A stretch of 64,000 nt of DNA from Archangium gephyra (GTDB lineage Bacteria; Myxococcota; Myxococcia; Myxococcales; Myxococcaceae), in contig NZ_CP011509.1 in NCBI RefSeq assembly GCF_001027285.1, positions 6,224,501 to 6,288,500 of the forward strand, read 5' to 3'. The translations under genes were made by a program, and so were the position numbers. The notes under the pieces were generated by a model. That model ran no database searches. It had not been told where the DNA came from and worked only from the letters and a program-made list of their open reading frames with translations. Shown in pieces: positions 19,351-35,219 of the stretch. Position 1 is the first letter of the stretch; the number at the start of each line of letters is the position of its first letter.

Positions 19351-19440
19351 ACCCTCACCCCGGCCCTCAGAGGGAGAGGGTGCTCGGAACCCGTGGCCCG
19401 TGGCACCCTCACCCCGTCCCTCTCCCGAAGGGAGAGGGGA
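19351..19440. repeat. REP-like repeats, tandem copies 3a and 3b
   Basis: Two copies lie in the same orientation at about 19351-19382 and 19405-19440, separated by some 22 bases. They sit between the convergent ends of the acyl-CoA ligase (19309) and citrate synthase (19448). The second copy reads CCCTCACCCCGTCCCTC, then CTCCC-GAA-GGGAG and AGGGG. Confidence 0.8.
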
Positions 19441-23167: not shown

Positions 23168-24183
23168 GCGGAGTGGGGCCGGGCGTTGAGTTGAAGGACG
23201 AGGTCCGCCAGCACGAGCGAGACCATGGACTCCAGCACGGGCACGGCGCGCGGCATGATGCAGGGATCATGTCGCCCGCCCTTCGCGTGGTCCGCGAGCG
23301 TGGCTGGAGGCTTGAAGAAGACGCGCAGGGCGACGGGCTCGCCATTGGCCAGGCCACCCTGGATACCGCCGTAGGTGTCCTTCTGGGAGTGGAAGACGCT
23401 GCCGGGCTGTTCGATGCGCGCGAGCAGATCCGGCGGGCCCCAGACGACGCCGGTGACGGCGCCCACACTGCCCAGCGCGAGCGCGAACAGTGCCTTCATC
23501 TTGCCGAAGATGGGCTCGCCGAGGCCCACGGGAAGGCCGTCGACGCGGATGTCGATGCAGCCCCCGAGGCTGTCTCCGGCCTCCTTGGCGGCGAGGATCC
23601 GCTTGGACATCTCCTCGCGGGCCACGGGATCCGGGCAGCGCGTCGGGTGGGCATCCACCATCGCGCGGGTGAGGCCAGGCTCGGGAATGGCGGACACCAG
23701 GTTGCCCACCTGCGACACCCAGGCCACGGTGCGCACTCCGGGGAAGGCCTGGGCCAGGTAGGCCTCGGCGACGGCGCCTCCGATGACACGGCAGAGCGTC
23801 TCACGGCCGCTGGTGCGCCCGCCGCCCCGATGGTCACGGTGCTTGAAGCGCTCGCGCCAGACGGCATCGGCGTGGCCAGGACGGTCCTCGGACTTGAGCT
23901 TCTCGTAGTCCCCGGAGCGCTGGTTCGTGTTGCGCACGATGGCCGCGATGGGCGTGCCGAGCGTCTTGCCCTCGAAGACACCGGAGAGGATCTCCACCTG
24001 ATCTGGCTCGGCGCGCGCGGTGACGAGCGCGGACTGGCCGGGACGGCGGCGATCCAGGGCGGTCTGGATGAGCTCCCGCTCGAGGGGAATGCCCGCCGGA
24101 CAGCCATCGATGATGGAGCCGAGCGCGGGGCCGTGGCTCTCGCCGAAGGTGGTGAGGCGGAAGAGGGTACCAATCGTATTCAT
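23164..24183 (-). CDS. aroC: chorismate synthase
   Basis: It eliminates phosphate from EPSP to form chorismate, using reduced FMN. The 339-residue product has FGESHGPALG at the N-terminus, DRRRPGQS, EDRPGHADAV and GGGRTSGRETLCRV, and ends with TYGGIQGGLANGEPV and KGGRHDPCIMPRAVPV. It is slightly shorter than the usual 350-370 residues. It overlaps aroDE and aroB by four bases at each end, so coupled translation is likely. Confidence 0.96.
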   Translation of the reverse strand: MNTIGTLFRLTTFGESHGPALGSIIDGCPAGIPLERELIQTALDRRRPGQSALVTARAEPDQVEILSGVFEGKTLGTPIAAIVRNTNQRSGDYEKLKSEDRPGHADAVWRERFKHRDHRGGGRTSGRETLCRVIGGAVAEAYLAQAFPGVRTVAWVSQVGNLVSAIPEPGLTRAMVDAHPTRCPDPVAREEMSKRILAAKEAGDSLGGCIDIRVDGLPVGLGEPIFGKMKALFALALGSVGAVTGVVWGPPDLLARIEQPGSVFHSQKDTYGGIQGGLANGEPVALRVFFKPPATLADHAKGGRHDPCIMPRAVPVLESMVSLVLADLVLQLNARPHSA

Positions 24184-25457
24184 GAAGCGGTCTCCCAGAG
24201 GGCGCGCTGCTGTCGGGCCTGGGCGATGAACCAGGCCGCGCCGAGGAGCAGCGGAGTCCCCCCGCGGCGGGTGATTTCCGTGGCGATGCGGCGCGCCGGG
24301 GCTCCGTAGGCGATGACGGCGATGCGGGCACCCTCGAAGCGCAGGGTGTCGGGTGGGGTGATGCGATCCGGCCAGGTCCAGATGCCGGAGCCGGAGAGGG
24401 GTCCGGAGATCTCCGCGCGGCGCAGGAAGCGGAGCTGACAGCCCATCTCGGTGCCCACGACGCGGATGGCGGCACTGGCGCCCCCGTCACCGAGGACGAA
24501 CATGTCCCTGGCCCCGAGCCGCTCGAGGACGCTGCGAGCGCCAGCGGTATCGGTGTTGAAGGATTCCCAGCGGTCGCGGCGGCGGACGAGGGTGTTGATG
24601 GCGTCGAGCGGCGAGCCGGTGTGCCGGGCGAGGCGCATCTTGAAGGGGCTGGTGACGGCGAAGCCGCGGTAATGAGGGAGGAGAGCGTCGACGAGGGCCT
24701 CGACGGGGGCGTCCTCGGGGATGTCGATGCGATCGAAGGGCTGGCGGTGGATGCGAGGCGATCGCGAGTGCACGATCGAGGTCCCCAGGATCGCCAACCT
24801 GCCCGATTTCCCCTCGCCCTCCGGGAGAGGGACGGGGTGAGGGTGTCTCGCCTCTCGGGTTGCATCCGCGAGCAACCGCTGTCCCGGAGCGGCCTTCCAG
24901 TCACCGCCCACGGCGACGTAATCGAGCACATTGCGCCGGGCGAGCACGGCGCGCACGGGAAGCGCCGTGGGTCCCATCGCGAGCACCGTCACGCGCTCCT
25001 CTCCGAAACGGGCGCGCAGCCGGGCCTGGGTCTCCAGCAGCACGGAGATCCGCTCCCGCGACTCCACCCCGAGCGGCTCGATGTGCTTCACCAGCGAGCC
25101 AGCAGGAAGCGCCACGTCCCACAGACGAAGGGCCTCCTCGGTGGACAGGGGCCGCTCGGCATGATGCGAGGCCAGCAGCTTCCCGGCCGGAGCCGCGAGG
25201 TCCCCGGCGTGAACGACATCCCGATCCACCCACCGGGCGGCGGCCACCCACGCGGGAGGCAGGGGCGTCCCACGCTCGGACACGAGCAGCTCCAGGAGGC
25301 CCGCGAGCGCCGAGGCATCCACCGCGTCGGCGGGGTGCAGATCCGTGCGCACCTCCAGCACCTCCGCTCCCCGGCTCCGGGCATCGGCGGCGAAGCGCAG
25401 GGCCTCGGGGCCGCGGAGGCTCGGGGGGAGGGTGACGACGCGGCGGGCCGGCGTCAT
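24180..25457 (-). CDS. aroDE: fused 3-dehydroquinate dehydratase (type I) and shikimate dehydrogenase
   Basis: This 425-residue bifunctional enzyme carries out shikimate steps three and four. Residues 1-197 resemble a compact type I dehydroquinase: EVRTDL, the catalytic His near 98-99 in ASHHAE, the Schiff-base Lys124 in LVKHIEPL and a C-terminal APGQ. Residues 219-425 form shikimate dehydrogenase, with HSRSPRIH, VTSPFK, NTD and the nucleotide loop GDGGASAA. The linker (about 198-216) is encoded by a genome repeat, reading PHPVPLPEGEG. The fusion order matches the plant and chlamydial bifunctional enzymes. Start ATG at 25457 overlaps the aroK stop as ATGA. Confidence 0.88.
   Translation of the reverse strand: MTPARRVVTLPPSLRGPEALRFAADARSRGAEVLEVRTDLHPADAVDASALAGLLELLVSERGTPLPPAWVAAARWVDRDVVHAGDLAAPAGKLLASHHAERPLSTEEALRLWDVALPAGSLVKHIEPLGVESRERISVLLETQARLRARFGEERVTVLAMGPTALPVRAVLARRNVLDYVAVGGDWKAAPGQRLLADATREARHPHPVPLPEGEGKSGRLAILGTSIVHSRSPRIHRQPFDRIDIPEDAPVEALVDALLPHYRGFAVTSPFKMRLARHTGSPLDAINTLVRRRDRWESFNTDTAGARSVLERLGARDMFVLGDGGASAAIRVVGTEMGCQLRFLRRAEISGPLSGSGIWTWPDRITPPDTLRFEGARIAVIAYGAPARRIATEITRRGGTPLLLGAAWFIAQARQQRALWETAS
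24807..24868. repeat. REP-like repeat copy 4, inside aroDE
   Basis: The minus strand of this stretch reads CAACCCG(N)n, then ACCCTCACCCCGTCCCTC, then CTCCCGGAGGGCGAGG. That is the extended form of the repeat. It falls exactly between the two enzyme domains of aroDE and keeps the frame, adding about 19 codons. Confidence 0.85.
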
Positions 25458-26056
25458 GACGGGCTCCCGGAGGACGCGAAGGCGCGCAGGAAGTCGGCGA
25501 GGCTCACGGTGGGCACGGCCGCGTGGAGCACCTGGCGCTGGTGGTAGATGGAGTGAAGCTCCTCCTCCAGAGTCATCCCGGGACGCAGCCGGGGGCGCGT
25601 CTTGTCGGCGAGGAGCCGCTCGCGGTACGTCTCGAAGGAGATGGGCACGAGCAGGGTGTAGCAGGACTGAAGCGCTTCCGGATGGTGCGAGAGGAAGCCT
25701 CCGCCCAGGGCCACCACGGAGCCGCGAGGCAGCTCCAGGAACAGGCCGCGCTCCGCCTCGCGGAAGCCGTTGGTGTCCTGCGCCACCCAATCCCGGAGAC
25801 TCCGGCCCGAGCGGCGCTCGAGCTCGACATCCAGGTCCAGCCCCTGCTTGCCCAGCAGGGCGCTCACCAGGGGCAGCAGGCGCGTCTTGCCCGCGGAGCG
25901 ATGCCCGGCGATGGCCACCGTCTGCCCGGGCGTGGGCAGGAGCGGGGGACCGGGCCGGGCAAGCTCTTCCCTCAGCGCAGGCGCGAGCCGGGGATCCACG
26001 GCTCCGAGGATGCGCTGGACGAGCTGGTGCTTCTGCTCAGCGGACAGTCCCGACAT
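25454..26056 (-). CDS. aroK: shikimate kinase with N-terminal extension
   Basis: It phosphorylates shikimate at O3. The 200-residue product has the Walker A motif GHRSAGKT at about residues 51-58, a substrate-binding DLDVELERRSG, the ALGGGF glycine motif and the lid region with KTRPRLRPG. The first 45 residues precede the usual kinase start and are rich in Pro and charged residues. The start at 26056 overlaps the menG end by 20 bases; no better start is evident. Its stop overlaps the aroDE ATG. Confidence 0.88.
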   Translation of the reverse strand: MSGLSAEQKHQLVQRILGAVDPRLAPALREELARPGPPLLPTPGQTVAIAGHRSAGKTRLLPLVSALLGKQGLDLDVELERRSGRSLRDWVAQDTNGFREAERGLFLELPRGSVVALGGGFLSHHPEALQSCYTLLVPISFETYRERLLADKTRPRLRPGMTLEEELHSIYHQRQVLHAAVPTVSLADFLRAFASSGSPS

Positions 26057-27747: not shown

Positions 27748-29048
27748 ATGACGACGCTCGGACGCGGTGACGGAGGCCACTGGGTGGCGGGGACTTTGTC
27801 CCTGGCCGCGGTGGATCCGCTCGCGGGGGCGGAGGTGCTGGGCGAGCCGTCCGTCTATTGGGAGCGGCCACTGGCGGGCGAGGCGATGGCGGGGTGGGGC
27901 GAGGCGGCCTCGGTGGAGGCCGGCAGCGGTGCGCGAGCCCAGGCGGTGCTGAGGGAGTTGTCGGCACTGGACTCGGTGCGCTGGTTGGGCGCGGCGCCCT
28001 CGGCCCTGCCGGGACCCTGGTTCGGCGGGATGCGCTTCTCGACGGCGGGCGGGGACTCGGGGTGGGGGGCGTTCGGCTTCGGCCGGTGGACGCTGCCCGA
28101 GGTGATGGTGTGGCGCGAGGGCCCGGGCCTGATGGCGGCGGCCTTCGCTCCCGAGGGCCCCGGCGCCGAGGACGTGGTGCGCTCGCTGCTGGCGCGGGTG
28201 GGGGCGAACTTCCCCGCGGGGCACCGGCAGGCCCGGAATGGCTCGCAGGCGCTGCGGCTGGTCTCGTCGCGGCCGGACTTCGAGGGGCGGGTGGAGCGGG
28301 CGGTGGAGACGATCAACGCCGGGGGCCTCCAGAAGGTGGTGCTGGCCCGGGCGGTGGAGGTGGAGGGCGAGTCCACCTTTGATCGCGTGGACGTGCTGGC
28401 CCGGCTGCGCGAGCAGAACCCGCGCTGTGCCACCTTCCTCTTCCGGGCGCCGGACGGGGCGGCCTTCCTGGGCGCCACACCGGAGACGCTGTGCCGGGTG
28501 GAGGGGCGCCATCTTGAGACGGAGGCCCTGGCCGGCTCCGCGGCGCCCGCGCAGGCCGGGACGTTGGAGGGAAGCGACAAGGACTGCCGCGAGCACGAGG
28601 CGGTGGTGCGCTACATCCTCCGGGCGCTCAAGCCGCTGACGGAGAAGCTGGACGCGGACGCCGAGCCGGCGCTGCTCACCTTGAAGAACGTGGTGCACCT
28701 GCGCACGGGCATCCGCGCCGAGCTGCGCGAGGGGGTGGGGGTGGCCGAGCTGGTGGCGGCGCTGCACCCCACACCCGCGGTGGGAGGAACCCCCGGGAAC
28801 GCGCACTGGAGTTCCTGGTCGAGCACGAGGCGTTGGATCGGGGCTGGTACGCGGGGCCGGTCGGATGGGTAGGACCCGGGCGGGCGCACCAGATGGTGGC
28901 GCTGCGTTCGGCACGCATCAAGGGATCCCAGGCTCGACTCTTCGTGGGTGCTGGTATCGTGGCGGGCTCAAGCGCCGAGTCGGAGTGGCGCGAGACGGAG
29001 ATGAAGAGCCTGGCCATGCTGCGTGCGCTCGGAGGAGGACATGTCTGA
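27748..29048 (+). CDS. menF: isochorismate synthase (frameshift near C-terminus)
   Basis: It isomerises chorismate to isochorismate, committing it to menaquinone. The chorismate-binding domain is clear: [56 protein letters not shown] and [11 protein letters not shown]. In the starting frame it runs into an unrelated tail and stops at 28872. The expected end ([13 protein letters not shown], then [18 protein letters not shown] and EWRETEMK) is in another frame and stops at 29048. One extra C in the C5 run at 28790-28794 would give a normal 433-residue protein. The start ATG follows GAGGAA. Its corrected end overlaps menD by eight bases. Confidence 0.88.
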
Positions 29049-30810
29049 CGCCAACCTGAATCAACTGTGGGCGCGGGCATTGGTGGAGGAGTTGGTTCGG
29101 GGAGGCGTGAGGCACGCGGTGGTGTGCCCGGGTTCACGCTCCTCGCCCCTGGCGCTGGCGTGTGCCCGGACGGAGGGGATGCGCGCCTGGTCCGTCATCG
29201 ACGAGCGCAGCGCCGGTTTCTTCGCGCTGGGGCTGGCCAAGCAGTCGCGGGCGCCGGTGGTGCTGGTGGCCACGAGTGGCACGGCGGGCGCGCACTTCTA
29301 CCCGGCGGTCATCGAGGCGGCCATGTCGCAGGTGCCGCTGGTGGTGCTGACGGCGGACCGGCCCCTGGAGCTCCAGGGCTGGGGCGCGCCGCAGACGGTG
29401 CCGCAGGCGCGCTTCTTCGGAGACTTCGCGCGGCTGTACGCGGACGTGGGCCTGCCGGAGGCGGACGATGCGGCCCTGGTGCACCTGCGCGCCACCGTGG
29501 CCCGGGCCGTGTCCGTGGCCTCGCGGGCGCCCCGGGGCGCGGTGCAGCTCAACGTGCCGTTCCGCGAGCCGCTCGCGCCCACGCCGGGCTCCTTCGACGC
29601 CAAGCACCTCTCCTCGCTGGCGCGGGAGGGCAGGCCGGGAGCGCCGCTGACCCGCATCGTCCCACCGGCGCGCCAGCCGGACGCGCGGGTGCTGGAGGAG
29701 ATCCGCGCGCGGGTGGCGGCCACCGAGCGGGGCGTCATCGTCTGCGGACCCCGGGACGAGAACGATGGTTTCGCGGAGGCGATTGCCTCGCTGGCCGAGG
29801 CCACCGGCTACCCGGTGCTGGCCGAGGCCACCTCCCAGGCGCGCTACGGCGGCGGCCCGGCCACGGTGTCGCTCTATGACGCGATGCTGCGGCACGAGCC
29901 CTTCGCCCGGGCGCACCGGCCGGAGCTGGTGCTGCGCTTCGGCGGAGGCCTGACGCCCAAGGGGCCGCAGGCGTGGATCGACGGCTCGGGCGCGGAGATC
30001 GTGGTCTTCAGCGACGAGGGTGGGCTCTTCGATCCAGCGCACCGCGCGTCGCGGGTGGTGGAGGGCTCGTCGGTGGTGGCGTGCGAGGCGCTGAGCCAGG
30101 GGCTCTCGAGGGGCCTGGGCCCCTGGGCGCGCAGCTTCCTGTGGGCCGAGCAATGGACGCGGGCGGCGCTGGAGTCGGCGTTCTCGGAGGACCCGGCGCT
30201 GACGGAGATGCGCATCGCGCACGACGTGGTGTCGGCGATGCCGGACGGAGCGAACCTCTTCGTGTCCAGCAGCATGCCCATCCGGGACGTGGACGCCTTC
30301 GCGCCGTCCATGGGCCGGGGGCTGCGGGTGCTGGCCAACCGGGGCGCCAATGGCATCGACGGCATCGTCTCGAGCGCGCTCGGGGTGGCGGCGGCATCGG
30401 GGCGTCCCACGGTGCTGCTGACGGGAGACCTGGCCTTCCTGCACGACGTGGGCGGGCTGCTGACGGCGCGCCGGAGCGGGGTGCCCCTGACGGTGGTGGT
30501 GGTGAACAATGACGGAGGAGGCATCTTCTCCTTCCTTCCCATCGCCCAGGCCGAGGGAGTGAAGTCGCATTACGAGCCGCTGTGGGGCACGCCGCACGGG
30601 GTGGACCTGTCGCATGCGGCGGCGCTCTACCAGGCCCGCTTCCGGCGTCCGGACTCGCCCGCGTCGTTGCGGTCGGCCGTGGCCGAAGGGCTCAAGGGCG
30701 GGGTCCACCTGATTGAAGTCAAGGTGGCGGAGCGGGCGAGGAACGTGGATCTGCACCGGCAACTGTTCGCGAGGATGGCGGCCGCACTGGGAGAAGGCCC
30801 ATGGCTCTGA
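29041..30810 (+). CDS. menD: SEPHCHC synthase MenD
   Basis: This thiamine-diphosphate enzyme joins 2-oxoglutarate and isochorismate to give SEPHCHC. The 589-residue product has the N-terminal VVCPGSRSSPLALA with the ThDP Glu region, FALGLAKQSRAPVVLVATSG, and LVVLTADRPLELQGWGAPQT. The C-terminal diphosphate/Mg motif is GDLAFLHDVGGLL with NNDGGGIFSFLP. I chose the ATG at 29041 because GGAGGAGG lies directly upstream; a start at 29023 would add only six residues. It overlaps menF and menH, so coupled translation is likely. Confidence 0.95.
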   Translation: MSDANLNQLWARALVEELVRGGVRHAVVCPGSRSSPLALACARTEGMRAWSVIDERSAGFFALGLAKQSRAPVVLVATSGTAGAHFYPAVIEAAMSQVPLVVLTADRPLELQGWGAPQTVPQARFFGDFARLYADVGLPEADDAALVHLRATVARAVSVASRAPRGAVQLNVPFREPLAPTPGSFDAKHLSSLAREGRPGAPLTRIVPPARQPDARVLEEIRARVAATERGVIVCGPRDENDGFAEAIASLAEATGYPVLAEATSQARYGGGPATVSLYDAMLRHEPFARAHRPELVLRFGGGLTPKGPQAWIDGSGAEIVVFSDEGGLFDPAHRASRVVEGSSVVACEALSQGLSRGLGPWARSFLWAEQWTRAALESAFSEDPALTEMRIAHDVVSAMPDGANLFVSSSMPIRDVDAFAPSMGRGLRVLANRGANGIDGIVSSALGVAAASGRPTVLLTGDLAFLHDVGGLLTARRSGVPLTVVVVNNDGGGIFSFLPIAQAEGVKSHYEPLWGTPHGVDLSHAAALYQARFRRPDSPASLRSAVAEGLKGGVHLIEVKVAERARNVDLHRQLFARMAAALGEGPWL

Positions 30811-31673
30811 AGATGGCGTACGAGACGTGGGGAGAGGGTCCATACCCGCTCCTCCTCGTGCATGGCTTCACGGGGAACCGGTCGGCGTTCGATCACCTGC
30901 GTCCGCTGATGAGCAGCAAGGTGCGCGCCATCGCGGTGGATCTGCCGGGACATGGGGACACGCCGCTGCCCACGAAGACGGGACGCGACGGCTTCCTGGA
31001 GACGATCGACGCGGTGTTCCGGGTGCTGGACGAGGTGGGGGAGCCGAAGGCGAACCTGCTGGGGTACTCGCAGGGAGCGCGCTTCGCGCTGGCGGCGGCG
31101 CTGAGCCGGCCCGAGCGCTTCGGGCGGCTCATCATGGAGAGTGGCTCGCCGGGGCTGCACCGGCGCCAGCATCGGACGGAGCGGCGCGTGAGTGACGCGC
31201 AGCTGGCGGCGATGCTGCGGCAGAAGGGCGTGCCGGCCTTCATGGAGTACTGGGAGTCGCTGCCGTTGTTCGCGGGGGTGCGCAAGCTGCCGGAGGAGCA
31301 GCAGGCGGCGCTCCGGGCGCGGCGCCACCAGTGCACGGTGGAGGGGCTGGTGGGCGCGCTGGAGTGCCTGGGCCTGGCGGTGCAGCCGGACTACTGGCCG
31401 GAGCTCCAGCGCCAGCGGCTGCCCACGCTGCTGCTGACGGGGGCGCTGGACGACAAGTACACGCAGCTCGCCCGCCGGATGGCGGTGGATCTGCCGGTGG
31501 TGTGGAGGCGCACGTTCGAGGACTGCACCCATGCCCCGCATCTGGAAGTGCCGGAGGAGTACGCCCGGGAGGTGATCTCCTTCCTGCAGACGCCCTGGTA
31601 CGAGTCCCCCGAGTTCGAGAACGCCACGCCCGACGCCGTGCCCGACAAGAGCGCGGCCGGGGGCAACGGCTAG
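30801..31673 (+). CDS. menH: SHCHC synthase MenH-type alpha/beta hydrolase
   Basis: It eliminates pyruvate from SEPHCHC. The 290-residue alpha/beta-fold hydrolase has the oxyanion-hole HGFTGN, the nucleophile elbow GYSQGAR (Ser), DLPGHGDT, a late Asp in LTGALDDKY and the catalytic His in CTHAPHLE. The sequence matches MenH. A C-terminal tail of about 25 residues after the last helix is rich in Ala, Asp and Gly. It begins ten bases before the menD stop. Confidence 0.9.
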   Translation: MALKMAYETWGEGPYPLLLVHGFTGNRSAFDHLRPLMSSKVRAIAVDLPGHGDTPLPTKTGRDGFLETIDAVFRVLDEVGEPKANLLGYSQGARFALAAALSRPERFGRLIMESGSPGLHRRQHRTERRVSDAQLAAMLRQKGVPAFMEYWESLPLFAGVRKLPEEQQAALRARRHQCTVEGLVGALECLGLAVQPDYWPELQRQRLPTLLLTGALDDKYTQLARRMAVDLPVVWRRTFEDCTHAPHLEVPEEYAREVISFLQTPWYESPEFENATPDAVPDKSAAGGNG

Positions 31674-31694: not shown

Positions 31695-32606
31695 ATGAAC
31701 GCGATTGCTCCCGCGGTGGAGGCCCCCCGCCCCACCTTGAAGACGTGGTTGATGGCCGCGAGGCCGAAGACGCTGACGGCGGCGCTGGTGCCGGTGATGG
31801 TGGGGACGGCGCTGGCGTACGGGCTGGGCGTGGGCCGGTGGCTGCCGGCGTTGGCGGCGCTGGTGGGTGCGATGCTGATCCAGATCGGCACGAACCTGAC
31901 GAACGACTACTACGACTTCAAGAAGGGGGCGGACACGGAGGAGCGGCTGGGGCCGCAGCGGGTGACGCAGAGCGGGCTGATCGCGCCGGGGGTGGTGCTG
32001 GCGAGCGCACTGACATGCTTCGGGCTGGCGGTGGCGACGGGCGTGTACCTGGTGGTGGTGGGAGGCTGGCCGATCGTGGCGATCGGGCTGGCGTCGGTGA
32101 CGGCGGGGTACGCGTACACGGGAGGCCCGTTCCCGCTGGCGTACCACGGGCTGGGAGACGTGTTCGTCTTCCTCTTCTTCGGGCTGGTGGCGGTGCCGGG
32201 GACGTTCTACGTGCAGACGCTGACAGTGGGCCCGGCGGCGTGGTGGGCGGCGATTCCGGTGGGCGCGATTGGCACGGCGCTGCTGGTGGTGAACAACCTG
32301 CGCGACGCGACGACGGACGTGAAGGCGGGCAAGAGGACGCTGGTGGTGCGTTTTGGCACGACGGCGGGCAAGGCGGAGTACGTGGTGCTGCTGGTGGCGG
32401 CGTTCGCGACCCCGCTGGCGATGTGGGGCCTGGGGCTGGCGAGCCCGTGGGTGCTGCTGGCGCTGCTGAGCGCGCCGGTGGCGGTGGCGCCGCTGAAGCT
32501 GGTGTTGGGAGCGCAGGGGGCGGCGTTGAACCCGGCGTTGGGCGGGACGGCGAAACTGCAGCTGGTGTTCGGGCTGTTGTTCTCGGTGGGGCTGTACCTG
32601 AGGTAG
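31695..32606 (+). CDS. menA: 1,4-dihydroxy-2-naphthoate polyprenyltransferase
   Basis: This integral-membrane prenyltransferase attaches the isoprenoid tail to DHNA. The 303-residue UbiA-family protein has the first Asp-rich motif NLTNDYYDFKKGADT, a second motif NNLRDATTDVKAGKRTL and about eight hydrophobic helices. Its place between menH and menC, four bases before menC, supports the DHNA substrate over other UbiA substrates. Confidence 0.93.
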   Translation: MNAIAPAVEAPRPTLKTWLMAARPKTLTAALVPVMVGTALAYGLGVGRWLPALAALVGAMLIQIGTNLTNDYYDFKKGADTEERLGPQRVTQSGLIAPGVVLASALTCFGLAVATGVYLVVVGGWPIVAIGLASVTAGYAYTGGPFPLAYHGLGDVFVFLFFGLVAVPGTFYVQTLTVGPAAWWAAIPVGAIGTALLVVNNLRDATTDVKAGKRTLVVRFGTTAGKAEYVVLLVAAFATPLAMWGLGLASPWVLLALLSAPVAVAPLKLVLGAQGAALNPALGGTAKLQLVFGLLFSVGLYLR

Positions 32607-32610
32607 GGCG

Positions 32611-33777
32611 ATGCGCATCACGAAGACGGCGCTCCATGCGCTGCGCCTGGAGATGGTGAACCCGCTGAAGACGGCGAGGGGCACCTACGCGGCGCGAGAG
32701 GGCTTCGTGGTGCGGTTGGAGGACGAGGAGGGGCGGGTCGGGCAGGGCGAGGCGATGCCGCTGGAGGAGTTCGGCACGGAGTCGCCAGGCGACTGCGAGC
32801 GGGCCCTGAGCCAGCTCCTGGTGACATTGCGCACCAGCACCAAGAACATCTCCTCGAACAATACCCCTCCGAACAACACCCCTCTCCCCCCGGGAGAGGG
32901 ACGGGGTGAGGGTATCTCGGCCCCCGGGTTGGATCCGTGTCTGCTCCCTCTCCCTCTGGGAGAGGGCTGGGGTGAGGGATTTCCCACCCGTACACCCGCG
33001 GCGAGACATGCCGTGGAACAAGCGCTCCTGGACCTCCTGGCCCAGCGCCGAGGGCTCCCCCTGAGCCAACTGCTCTCGAGTGACGCCAGAACAAACCTCC
33101 ACGTCAACGCGCTCCTGGGAGCGGCATCGCCGCAGACCCTCGCGGAAGAAGCGCGGAGGGCGGTAGCGGAGGGCTACGAAACACTGAAGCTCAAGGTCGC
33201 CGGGCGCCCACTGGCGGAGGACGTAGCGCGACTGTCCGCGGTGCGGAACGCGGTCGGAACCACCATCCGCCTCCGAGTCGACGCGAACGGGGCCTGGACG
33301 GAACCAGAGGCGCGAGCCGCGCTCGAGGCCCTGGGCCGCTACGAGCTCGAACTGTGCGAGCAGCCGGTGGCGCCCGAGAACCCCGAGGCCCTGGCCCGCC
33401 TTGGCGAGCACAGTCCCTGCCCACTGGCCGCGGACGAAGCCCTGTCTCTACCCGAGGCCACGCAGCACATCCTGAATCACCCCGGGACGGTGAAGATCCT
33501 GGTGCTCAAGCCGATGGTGCTGGGAGGCCTGATCCCCACGCTGAAGCTGGCGCGAGAGGCGGCGAGCAGAGGAATGGCCGCCTACGTGACGAGCTCGCTG
33601 GACGGAGTGATCGCGCGAGCAGGCGCGGCGCACCTGGCGGCGGCATTGCCGTCGGGGAGCTACGCGTCGGGGCTCGGGGTGGGGCACCTCTTCAAGGACG
33701 AGCCCGGGAACCATCCATTCCGTCCGGTGCGGGGCCGAATCCAGCTGCCGCGGACGCCGGGCCTGGGAGTGAACTGA
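32611..33777 (+). CDS. menC: o-succinylbenzoate synthase carrying a repeat-encoded insert
   Basis: This enolase-superfamily enzyme dehydrates SHCHC to o-succinylbenzoate. The 388-residue product has the catalytic KxK in LKLKV (Lys193, Lys195), and metal ligands Asp224 (VDANG), Glu250 (CEQP) and Asp275 (ADEAL), followed by a basic LKP (Lys300). Between the capping domain and the barrel, residues about 76-127 are foreign-looking: PLPPGEGRGEG and PLPLGEGWGEG, encoded by two tandem genome repeats. Without them the protein would be about 336 residues, close to the usual size. All catalytic residues survive. Its stop overlaps the menE ATG by one base. Confidence 0.9.
   Translation: MRITKTALHALRLEMVNPLKTARGTYAAREGFVVRLEDEEGRVGQGEAMPLEEFGTESPGDCERALSQLLVTLRTSTKNISSNNTPPNNTPLPPGEGRGEGISAPGLDPCLLPLPLGEGWGEGFPTRTPAARHAVEQALLDLLAQRRGLPLSQLLSSDARTNLHVNALLGAASPQTLAEEARRAVAEGYETLKLKVAGRPLAEDVARLSAVRNAVGTTIRLRVDANGAWTEPEARAALEALGRYELELCEQPVAPENPEALARLGEHSPCPLAADEALSLPEATQHILNHPGTVKILVLKPMVLGGLIPTLKLAREAASRGMAAYVTSSLDGVIARAGAAHLAAALPSGSYASGLGVGHLFKDEPGNHPFRPVRGRIQLPRTPGLGVN
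32879..32982. repeat. REP-like repeats, tandem copies 5a and 5b, inside menC
   Basis: Two copies in the same orientation lie at about 32879-32917 and 32945-32982, each ending in GGGGTGAGGG. They sit in frame inside menC. The spacer contains CCCGGGTTGGATCC, resembling the flank of other extended copies. Confidence 0.85.
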
Positions 33778-35219
33778 TGCAGTGGACGTGCCCCATCCGA
33801 ACCGGCGCCCAGACGCGGCCGGAGGCCCTGGCGCTCACCTTCGCGAACCGCCGGTGGACGTACCGCGAACTGGACGCCGAGGTCGGCCGGTGGGTGGCGG
33901 CGCTCCAGTCGAGGGGCGTGCGGCCAGGAGACAGGGTCGCACTGCTCGCGACGAACCACGCGGCGGTGGCACAGCTCTTCTTCGCACTCGGACGAGTCGG
34001 AGCGGTGCTGGCGCCGCTCAACGCGAGGCTCACCCGTGCGGAGCTCCAGCCGCTGTCCGACGACGTGACCCCGAGGCTCACCCTGGCACTCACGGGGCTC
34101 GTGGAGCGCCTCCCGGGAGCGGAGCCCCTCGAGACCTTCACGGACACGGTGAACACCTCCGTGCCCGACTGCGCGCCGCTGGAGGCTCACTCGCCTCGGG
34201 TCATCCTCTTCACCTCCGGGACGACGGGCCGACCGAAGGGGGCGGTGCTGACGGAGGGGAACTTCCGGGCCTCGGCGCGGGCGTCCGAGGCGAACCTGGG
34301 CTCCCATCCGGCGCCGCACTGGCTGGGCACCTTGCCGCTCTTCCACGTGGGGGGCCTGGGGATGCTCACGCGCACGGCGTACGACGGAGGCTGCCTGGTG
34401 CTGCGGGAGCGCTTCGAGGCGGAGGACACCAACCGGGCGATCGACGAGGAAGGCGTCACGCACGCGAGCTTCGTGGCGACGACCCTGGAGCGCGTGCTGG
34501 AGGCGCGGAAGGATCGCCCGGTGCCGTCCGCGTTCCGGTGTGCACTGATCGGCGGAGGACCAGTACCCGCGCCGCTGCTGGCCCGCGCGAGGGCGGCGGG
34601 AATCCTGGCGCTCCAGACCTACGGACTGACGGAGGCCTGCGCGCAGGTCACCACGGAGAGCCCGGACGAGGCCGACGGCCGCACGGCGGGCCGCCCCCTG
34701 CCAGGCCTGCGGGTGCGCATCGTGGGGCCCGGTGGAGAGCCCCTGGAGCCGGGGAGGGAAGGAGACATCGAGGTCCACGGCCCCACGGTGATGGCGGGCT
34801 ACCTGAACCGGCCCGAGGCCACGAGTGAGGCGTTCCGGGACGGCTGGCTGCGGACGAAGGACGTGGGGATGCTGGACGAGCGGGGCCGGCTGACGGTGCT
34901 CTCGAGGCGGACGGACCTGATCGTCCGGGGAGGGGAGAACATCTACCCGGCGGAGCTGGAGGCGGTGCTGGTGGCGCACCCGGCGGTCCAGGAGGCGGCG
35001 GTGGTGGGAGTCCCGGACGAGCGCTGGGGCGAGGTGCCGGTGGCGTTCGTGGCGACGCGCGACGGCGCACCACTACCGGAGGAACTGGGAGCCTGGTGCC
35101 GCGAGTCGCTGGCGGGCTTCAAGGTGCCGGCGCGTTTCCTGGGAATCGAGGCATTACCGCGCAACGCCATGGGGAAGATAGAGCGGACGGTGCTGCGCGA
35201 GCGGGCCCGGGGGGCCTGA
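33777..35219 (+). CDS. menE: o-succinylbenzoate-CoA ligase
   Basis: It activates o-succinylbenzoate with ATP and CoA. The 480-residue ANL-family ligase has LFTSGTTGRPKGAVLT, LPLFHVGGLGML (a MenE-type segment), QTYGLTEACAQV, the hinge DGWLRTKDVGMLDERG and the C-terminal NAMGKIERT with the catalytic Lys. The ATG at 33777 overlaps the menC stop (TGATG). It is the last gene of the men operon; the next enzyme, MenB, is absent from the window. Confidence 0.92.
   Translation: MQWTCPIRTGAQTRPEALALTFANRRWTYRELDAEVGRWVAALQSRGVRPGDRVALLATNHAAVAQLFFALGRVGAVLAPLNARLTRAELQPLSDDVTPRLTLALTGLVERLPGAEPLETFTDTVNTSVPDCAPLEAHSPRVILFTSGTTGRPKGAVLTEGNFRASARASEANLGSHPAPHWLGTLPLFHVGGLGMLTRTAYDGGCLVLRERFEAEDTNRAIDEEGVTHASFVATTLERVLEARKDRPVPSAFRCALIGGGPVPAPLLARARAAGILALQTYGLTEACAQVTTESPDEADGRTAGRPLPGLRVRIVGPGGEPLEPGREGDIEVHGPTVMAGYLNRPEATSEAFRDGWLRTKDVGMLDERGRLTVLSRRTDLIVRGGENIYPAELEAVLVAHPAVQEAAVVGVPDERWGEVPVAFVATRDGAPLPEELGAWCRESLAGFKVPARFLGIEALPRNAMGKIERTVLRERARGA

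Follow-up and report, generated by a model that had tools for sequence, protein, structure and literature searches.

A pair of palindromic boxC repeats lies in frame within menC, the gene for o-succinylbenzoate synthase, in Archangium gephyra, and we think it probable that the pair stems from an old insertion that has been tolerated as a loop of the enzyme while its stems were maintained by some process acting on the whole repeat family. The window that we analyzed is a 64,000-nucleotide stretch of the 12,489,432-bp single contig of the source genome, and menC is found there within a men cluster together with the parts of the repeat element:

27748-28872, plus strand: menF-like gene (isochorismate synthase), upstream of menC; NCBIfam match below the curated cut-off
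29023-30810, plus strand: menD, upstream of menC; NCBIfam match above the curated cut-off
30801-31673, plus strand: menH, upstream of menC; NCBIfam match above the curated cut-off
31695-32606, plus strand: menA, upstream of menC; NCBIfam match above the curated cut-off
32611-33777, plus strand: menC, o-succinylbenzoate synthase, 388 aa; open reading frame with NCBIfam and Pfam matches
32880-32912, plus strand: boxC/TMECO unit 1, translating as PLPPGEGRGEG; from repeat comparison and the TMECO pattern
32913-32945, plus strand: spacer of the composite element
32946-32978, plus strand: boxC/TMECO unit 2, translating as PLPLGEGWGEG; from repeat comparison and the TMECO pattern
33777-35219, plus strand: menE, downstream of menC; TIGR01923 match above cut-off

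Membership of the product in the MenC family is indicated by a passed equivalog model, by the invariance of six named residues and by the location of the gene within the men cluster. TIGR01927 (menC_gam_Gplu) scores 132.7 bits on the protein, above the cut-off of 130.55; the muconate cycloisomerase model TIGR02534 reaches a higher score (158.8), yet one far below its own cut-off. Enolase-superfamily enzymes are the top Foldseek matches of the predicted structure, with dipeptide epimerases leading. The six residues, Lys193, Lys195, Asp224, Glu250, Asp275 and Lys300, which we take to be the catalytic ones, show no variation across 21 aligned MenCs, and the rest of the protein outside the loop is conserved. 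Thus, as the initial annotation had claimed, the catalytic residues remain in frame, and the gene continues normally past the repeats, with the frame open wherever menC could be read through. The product of the MenC pathway is menaquinone, or vitamin K2, and since the genome has a men cluster and a search of it for the futalosine-pathway family PF02621 gave no match, gene content suggests that the enzyme is probably needed by the cell.

The two units are direct copies of 33 nt each, 88% alike, that start 66 nt apart, and both the presence of two repeat copies inside the menC reading frame and the two peptides proposed for them are borne out by our analysis. In each unit a loop of 3 nt separates a C-rich stem (CCCTCTCCC) from its complement (GGGAGAGGG), and a G-rich third block (GGGGTGAGGG) follows after 2 nt; a single unit is free of stops in five of the six frames. 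The third-position GC content of codons 90-123 is 0.65, compared with 0.85 in the rest of the gene. At the 5' edge of the element (window 32860-32885), some 15 bp appear to be tandemly duplicated in the source genome (G000), and a duplication of this kind also appears in A. lansinium MIWBW (G002, locus L010), where it would have arisen either separately from that of G000 or jointly with it.

The menC repeat is the known boxC/TMECO triplex motif and not a GTAG/CGTC REP, because it matches both the published TMECO pattern and the published table of E. coli copies. TMECO is the motif formerly named boxC or PIT (PMC4666352), and its pattern was published as CCCTCNCCC N3-6 GGGNGAGGG N3 GGGNGAGGG. 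The accessible part of that paper counts 3610 copies in 262 proteobacterial genomes (at most 143 per genome), describes the copies of E. coli MG1655 as "always located intergenically", gives five inverted pairs for E. coli and assigns the motif no function; an intrastrand triplex is described there for the E. coli sequence in vitro as a single strand, and as not observed in duplex or in vivo (PMC4666352). The window holds eight matches to the TMECO pattern, namely both menC units and six others, versus none in 100 shuffles, and a looser scan returned the same eight units plus two out-of-register matches with five mismatches, with none in 20 shuffled windows. The stems of the unit are identical to the E. 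coli boxC stems given in Table 1 of PMC4666352, and the likeness extends to the layout of a 9-nt C-rich stem, a 9-nt G-rich stem and a third G-rich strand, which the window units fit exactly. A BLAST search of the 35-nt unit against E. coli gave no match, which carries little weight, the query being short and of low complexity, and the four Rfam matches all fell below gathering scores. The Archangium copies differ from those of E. coli MG1655 in lying also in frame within genes, and from the five inverted pairs of E. coli in often forming direct pairs about 66 nt apart (PMC4666352). Intergenic location, which the menC units lack, is a reported property of boxC and not part of the definition of the motif.

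The initial annotation had described a mobile or REP-type repeat that became coding sequence, and the notion of a dispersed, REP-type repeat serving as coding sequence holds; the family is boxC/TMECO, so the reading as a GTAG/CGTC REP falls away, and mobility of the repeat can be supposed. A RAYT-associated REP was the identity that we considered and rejected, with no consistent GTAG/CGTC tag at the unit ends (printed copies, judged by eye) and no tyrosine transposase linked to the units. The tyrosine transposase family PF01797 has a patchy distribution, with matches in 13 of 92 family genomes and none in the repeat-rich genomes G001 (of a genus other than Archangium), G004, G005 and G080; G000 has a single match, whose 3.2-kb locus contains no repeat unit, and none was found near the PF01797 genes at the 12 of 23 matches that were looked at.

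The repeat is abundant in the source genome. The menC pair has at least 42 matches there (40 of 471 candidates scored), the hairpin-unit pattern has 278 matches, at least one site being counted twice, and the 21-mer GGGAGAGGGNNGGGGTGAGGG occurs exactly 412 times, versus zero for a reversed-pattern control. This number may be set against the 143 motifs of the richest genome in the accessible part of PMC4666352, bearing in mind that the patterns and the genome sizes differ. Across the family the 21-mer is present in 23 of 92 genomes, with 215-466 copies in the six genomes of the same genus and 202 in G080, an incomplete metagenome-assembled genome of Archangium sp. SZUA-606 that is listed under another genus (g20); zero or one copy is found in those of the 92 that are of Myxococcus, Corallococcus or Hyalangium type or belong to g6. 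G001 and the genomes of g3 and g17 carry tens to hundreds of repeats and G012 of g3 has none, so that the distribution is patchy. A script found 39 distinct pairs over 128 loci, many of them chosen as best matches to the menC pair, and their spacing was 66 nt in 27 cases, 65 in 8 and 67 in 4. Since pairs recur at about 66 nt across the genus, the menC pair is one composite element and not the product of a local tandem duplication; of the earlier description as two tandem genome repeats, the genome-wide family is thus retained and the tandem arrangement is not. The forward frame used in menC is open in only 28 of the 39 extracted pairs.

We found MenC-like matches in 95 of the 96 family genomes searched. 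A motif-based parse covered 72 of 130 MenC loci, some genomes being counted twice; the 58 others are mostly distant MenCs, plus Archangium loci L011, L013, L039 and L253 and locus L041 of G034, of which L011, L013, L039 and L041 were read directly and L253 duplicates L013. A unit occupies the same place in menC in all seven Archangium-clade genomes examined, with one or two units each and the frame open. The full pair is present in G000, G002, G006 and G080, G003 has the tail of the spacer and unit 2, G005 has one unit, and in G004 (A. violaceum Cb vi76) unit 1 is present and the contig then breaks off, the frame being readable only to that point. In the A. violaceum assembly the break falls within the menC repeat and divides the gene between contigs C277 and C278 (loci L013 and L039). 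Among the parsed loci, eight have a unit and all are from Archangium, and the other 64, of other lineages, have none. Mapping the insert onto menC of relatives, as the initial annotation had proposed, therefore places it in all seven clade genomes examined and in none of those 64 loci; the insertion is not private to the source genome, and it is trimmed in some of the others. A distant MenC with the same loop and no repeat DNA had been named as the observation that would speak against a repeat origin; none was found, most distant MenCs lying outside the parse.

The repeat-encoded stretch is predicted to form a loop inside the N-terminal capping domain:

32842-32988, plus strand: codons 78-126 of menC, predicted disordered loop with pLDDT below 50, between helices 59-76 and 129-147

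In the AlphaFold2 model, built with 21 sequences in the alignment and having a mean pLDDT of 81.5, residues 78-126 fall below 50. The insert is placed inside the capping domain because of the flanking helices and because the Pfam N-terminal domain, after MenC_N at 13-79, resumes as MR_MLE_N at 128-155, with the C-terminal MR_MLE_C starting at 177; the earlier placement between the capping and barrel domains thus has to be moved. The accompanying suggestion that the repeat had been accommodated as a surface loop fares better, in that we find a predicted disordered loop in an apparently intact enzyme gene. The stretch between the two helices measures 33 residues in one distant MenC, 46-55 in several, 69-71 in the MenCs of Myxococcus, Corallococcus and Hyalangium, where a loop of comparable length has a sequence unrelated to the repeat, and 75-84 in the three parsed full-pair Archangium genomes. 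Because this length varies among MenCs, the site tolerates length change. The figure of about 50 extra residues given at first depends on the comparison made, the excess being 31 residues over G031-G033 and 13 over Myxococcus-type MenCs.

The repeat is found in frame in further genes. We screened 132 sampled copy clusters, with 170 units in all, by a codon score that missed menC at the strict threshold and was then loosened; the loosened screen made 10 calls, of which eight were judged real by eye and two (L098 and L219) were dropped. Four of the eight candidates, menC among them, were compared with relatives; the other members of the set are as follows:

24180-25466, minus strand: gene for an AroE-like fusion protein; open reading frame with the start chosen by hand, sub-threshold matches only
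24811-24843, plus strand: boxC unit in the linker of the AroE-like fusion, with the minus-strand reading PHPVPLPEGEG
L074:3476-3574: full pair in a TopB-RecQ fusion, within the linker and using the menC frame
L216:3736-3828: repeat pair in the N-terminal linker of RecG
L213:3628-3726: candidate in-frame copy in an open reading frame without a Pfam match, the weakest of the eight
L214:3898-3930: candidate in-frame copy in an MFS/spermidine-synthase-like protein
L215:5587-5619: candidate in-frame copy in a ClpX zinc finger protein
L224:3524-3621: candidate in-frame copy in a TonB/TonB-receptor-like fusion

The frame is open through the repeat in menC, the AroE-like fusion gene, topB-recQ and recG, which suggests that the repeat is translated in all of them. 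The C-terminal half of the AroE-like fusion resembles the shikimate dehydrogenase AroE; the N-terminal half has no match, and AroD would be a guess. Its linker carries a unit in all seven Archangium-clade genomes versus none of 10 others. The TopB-RecQ linker has a unit in the same seven genomes (a single one in G004), and a single unit is also present in G001, with none in G033, G034 or G063. RecG has one or two units in the six Archangium genomes in which RecG was found, the incomplete G080 giving no RecG match; a unit in a different frame is present in RecG of G001, and G033, G034 and G063 have none. Two frames account for most of the in-frame cases, PLP.GEGxGEG forward and PHP.PLPEGEG in reverse, although the sampling partly used those frames, 20 of the 80 sampled loci having been chosen partly by translated matches in them. 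Among clusters sampled in position order, 1 of 96 was judged in frame, against 5 of 29 chosen through matches and 2 of 7 in the window; given the 1 in 96 of the position-order sample, the clean estimate of their frequency is low.

The presence of the menC element, its open frame, its distribution and the conservation of its stems are direct observations, and the history that probably connects them would run as follows. A composite boxC element of two direct TMECO units 66 nt apart would have entered menC once, before the sampled Archangium species diverged, landing where the first and second helices of the enolase-fold capping domain are separated by a gap of variable length. It could be read there as a loop because its units are stop-free in five of six frames and the 66-nt spacing holds both in one frame, and it would have formed a disordered stretch rich in Pro, Gly and Glu that left the enzyme intact and may have been neutral for its function. 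Later deletions would then have reduced it to one unit in some species.

An alternative for the arrival of the element is that it came more than once, with linkers acting as hot spots at which fresh copies are inserted or replaced in each species, so that the units look young; we regard this as rather unlikely. Units near the consensus are found in every species, which also fits repeated insertion at hot spots and counts against a single old event. Moreover, the G000 menC pair is closer to a non-menC pair of G006 (93%) than to the G006 menC pair (90%), in G004, the nearest relative of G000 on the MenC-core tree, the spacer begins differently after unit 1, at the contig end, and G001, from another genus, has units of its own in the TopB-RecQ and RecG linkers. 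The MenC-core tree does not firmly group the insert-bearing rows as one clade; it needs two changes, with a single change in 28% of bootstraps, and is compatible with one origin. Against recurrent arrival, place, orientation and frame of the menC unit are identical in seven of seven genomes, and copies elsewhere in the region also occupy positions shared between genomes. Spacers that are alike by eye, G006 with G003 and G000 with G002, belong to genomes that are close on the MenC-core tree, and G000 and G002 are also alike at the 3' junction of the element, which G004 shares.

The second part of our preferred reading, an old insertion with stems maintained family-wide, concerns the near constancy of the stems despite their coding freedom. 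In the units of menC and TopB-RecQ, 1 of 17 fourfold-degenerate columns varies in the stems and 5 of 8 in the loops, compared with 78 of 120 in the menC flanks of six genomes and 69 of 130 in those of four genomes. Fisher's test of stems versus the six-genome flanks gives p = 3e-6, a guide only, as it treats columns as independent and pools menC and TopB-RecQ units of five to seven genomes against menC flanks of six. Over the six comparisons among the four full-pair genomes, third positions agree at 121 of 132 in the units and 1268 of 1944 in the menC flanks, and for the extreme pair, G000 versus G080, at 22 of 22 and 197 of 324. When copies at corresponding places are compared, 1015 of 1036 stem positions, 112 of 185 loop positions and 6113 of 7746 flank positions are identical, the loop divergence being overstated, since the comparison sets one unit of a pair against the other at certain places (19406 and probably others). 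Five copies that received no in-frame call (515, 14530, 19406, 46665 and 59703) have counterparts at corresponding places in between one and four of the four relatives compared over the 64-kb region, where G003 and G006 were alignable only over 14.6-52.5 kb; the corresponding region of G033 has no repeat unit. The position of the copy at 19406-19438 is common to four relatives, with two units in G002 and one in G000; G003, G005 and G006 have one unit each, which resembles the other member of an ancestral pair. In the five copies not called in frame, stems agree at 493 of 504 positions and flanks at about 2795 of 3596, and in the menC and AroE-like gene copies stems agree at 522 of 532. Copies not called in frame are thus equally frozen, and the maintenance of the stems is therefore not specific to coding. 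The stems may be kept either by homogenization between copies or by selection on the DNA or RNA form of the element.

A related proposal, which overlaps with the preferred reading on how the element arrived and differs on why it stays, is that units are kept in genes because an mRNA or DNA hairpin or triplex acts there, for example by slowing ribosomes where two domains meet or by binding a factor. Such a function would suit the near absence of change at synonymous sites of the stems, in contrast to the loops and flanks, the location of the TopB-RecQ unit between two enzyme domains, and the identity of the stems with the E. coli boxC ones (PMC4666352). Nevertheless, the same freezing in copies outside the genes called in frame means that nothing coding-specific is required, the menC site is at no domain boundary, and menC of G003 and G005 manages with one unit. 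Moreover, RNA folding gives the menC stretch no advantage in stability over shuffles (z -0.5), and DNA folding a modest one (z -2.1). A function of this kind inside genes is in our judgment unlikely. A broader version, in which boxC stems are under sequence-specific selection everywhere, even where translated, through recognition by some factor or through a triplex or hairpin role in DNA or mRNA, strikes us as doubtful, if conceivable. If it is true, the coding copies would serve two ends at once, as a peptide linker and as a nucleic-acid element with a function of its own.

That the repeat marks a menC in decay or an assembly misjoin is very improbable: the A. violaceum assembly does break exactly within the repeat, but no stop interrupts the frame across it in G000, G005 and G006 (each a single contig) or in G002 (two contigs), and both the catalytic residues and the remaining protein are conserved. 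Hardly credible at all is an ordinary ancestral low-complexity loop resembling the repeat by chance, as the Myxococcus-type loop has a similar length and a peptide SPFPP.VARGEG, but its DNA at the site is unlike the repeat (examples, judged by eye) and the expected number of chance pattern matches is zero.

In-frame palindromic repeats are already known, and boxC adds a further case in which the conservation of the stems is the unusual part. Rickettsia palindromic elements (RPEs) lie in frame in 19 reading frames of conserved proteins, and a Rickettsia guanylate kinase with an RPE insert is translated and active with a changed substrate affinity, according to the accessible part of PMC2229807. 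The menC element is like an RPE in being a dispersed palindromic repeat with open frames, in frame within conserved proteins and tolerated; it differs in its GC-rich myxobacterial host, in being a short triplex motif and in the nearly frozen synonymous sites of its stems. We presume that the RPE sequence itself is unrelated to the boxC unit. Intragenic GTAG/CGTC REPs, as singles or dimers in reading frames such as uvrA, dnaE2 and recB, offer a second parallel, and many of the frames concerned are DNA synthesis or repair genes (PMC3733652, in the part accessible). Host genes of the repair type recur here with RecG and TopB-RecQ, whereas the Archangium units differ from those REPs in lacking a consistent tag and a linked tyrosine transposase that we could find. 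Among the matches listed in a search of the open-access literature, no title or abstract beginning mentioned a translated boxC.

These cases show that normally intergenic repeat DNA can turn into coding sequence and be retained, and that bacterial repeat DNA is a source of new enzyme loops and linkers. The nearly frozen synonymous sites suggest that boxC is maintained independently of an intergenic position. Furthermore, with boxC in frame in four genes, its roles in the protein and in the nucleic acid could be separated by synonymous recoding of the stems, or by the reverse.
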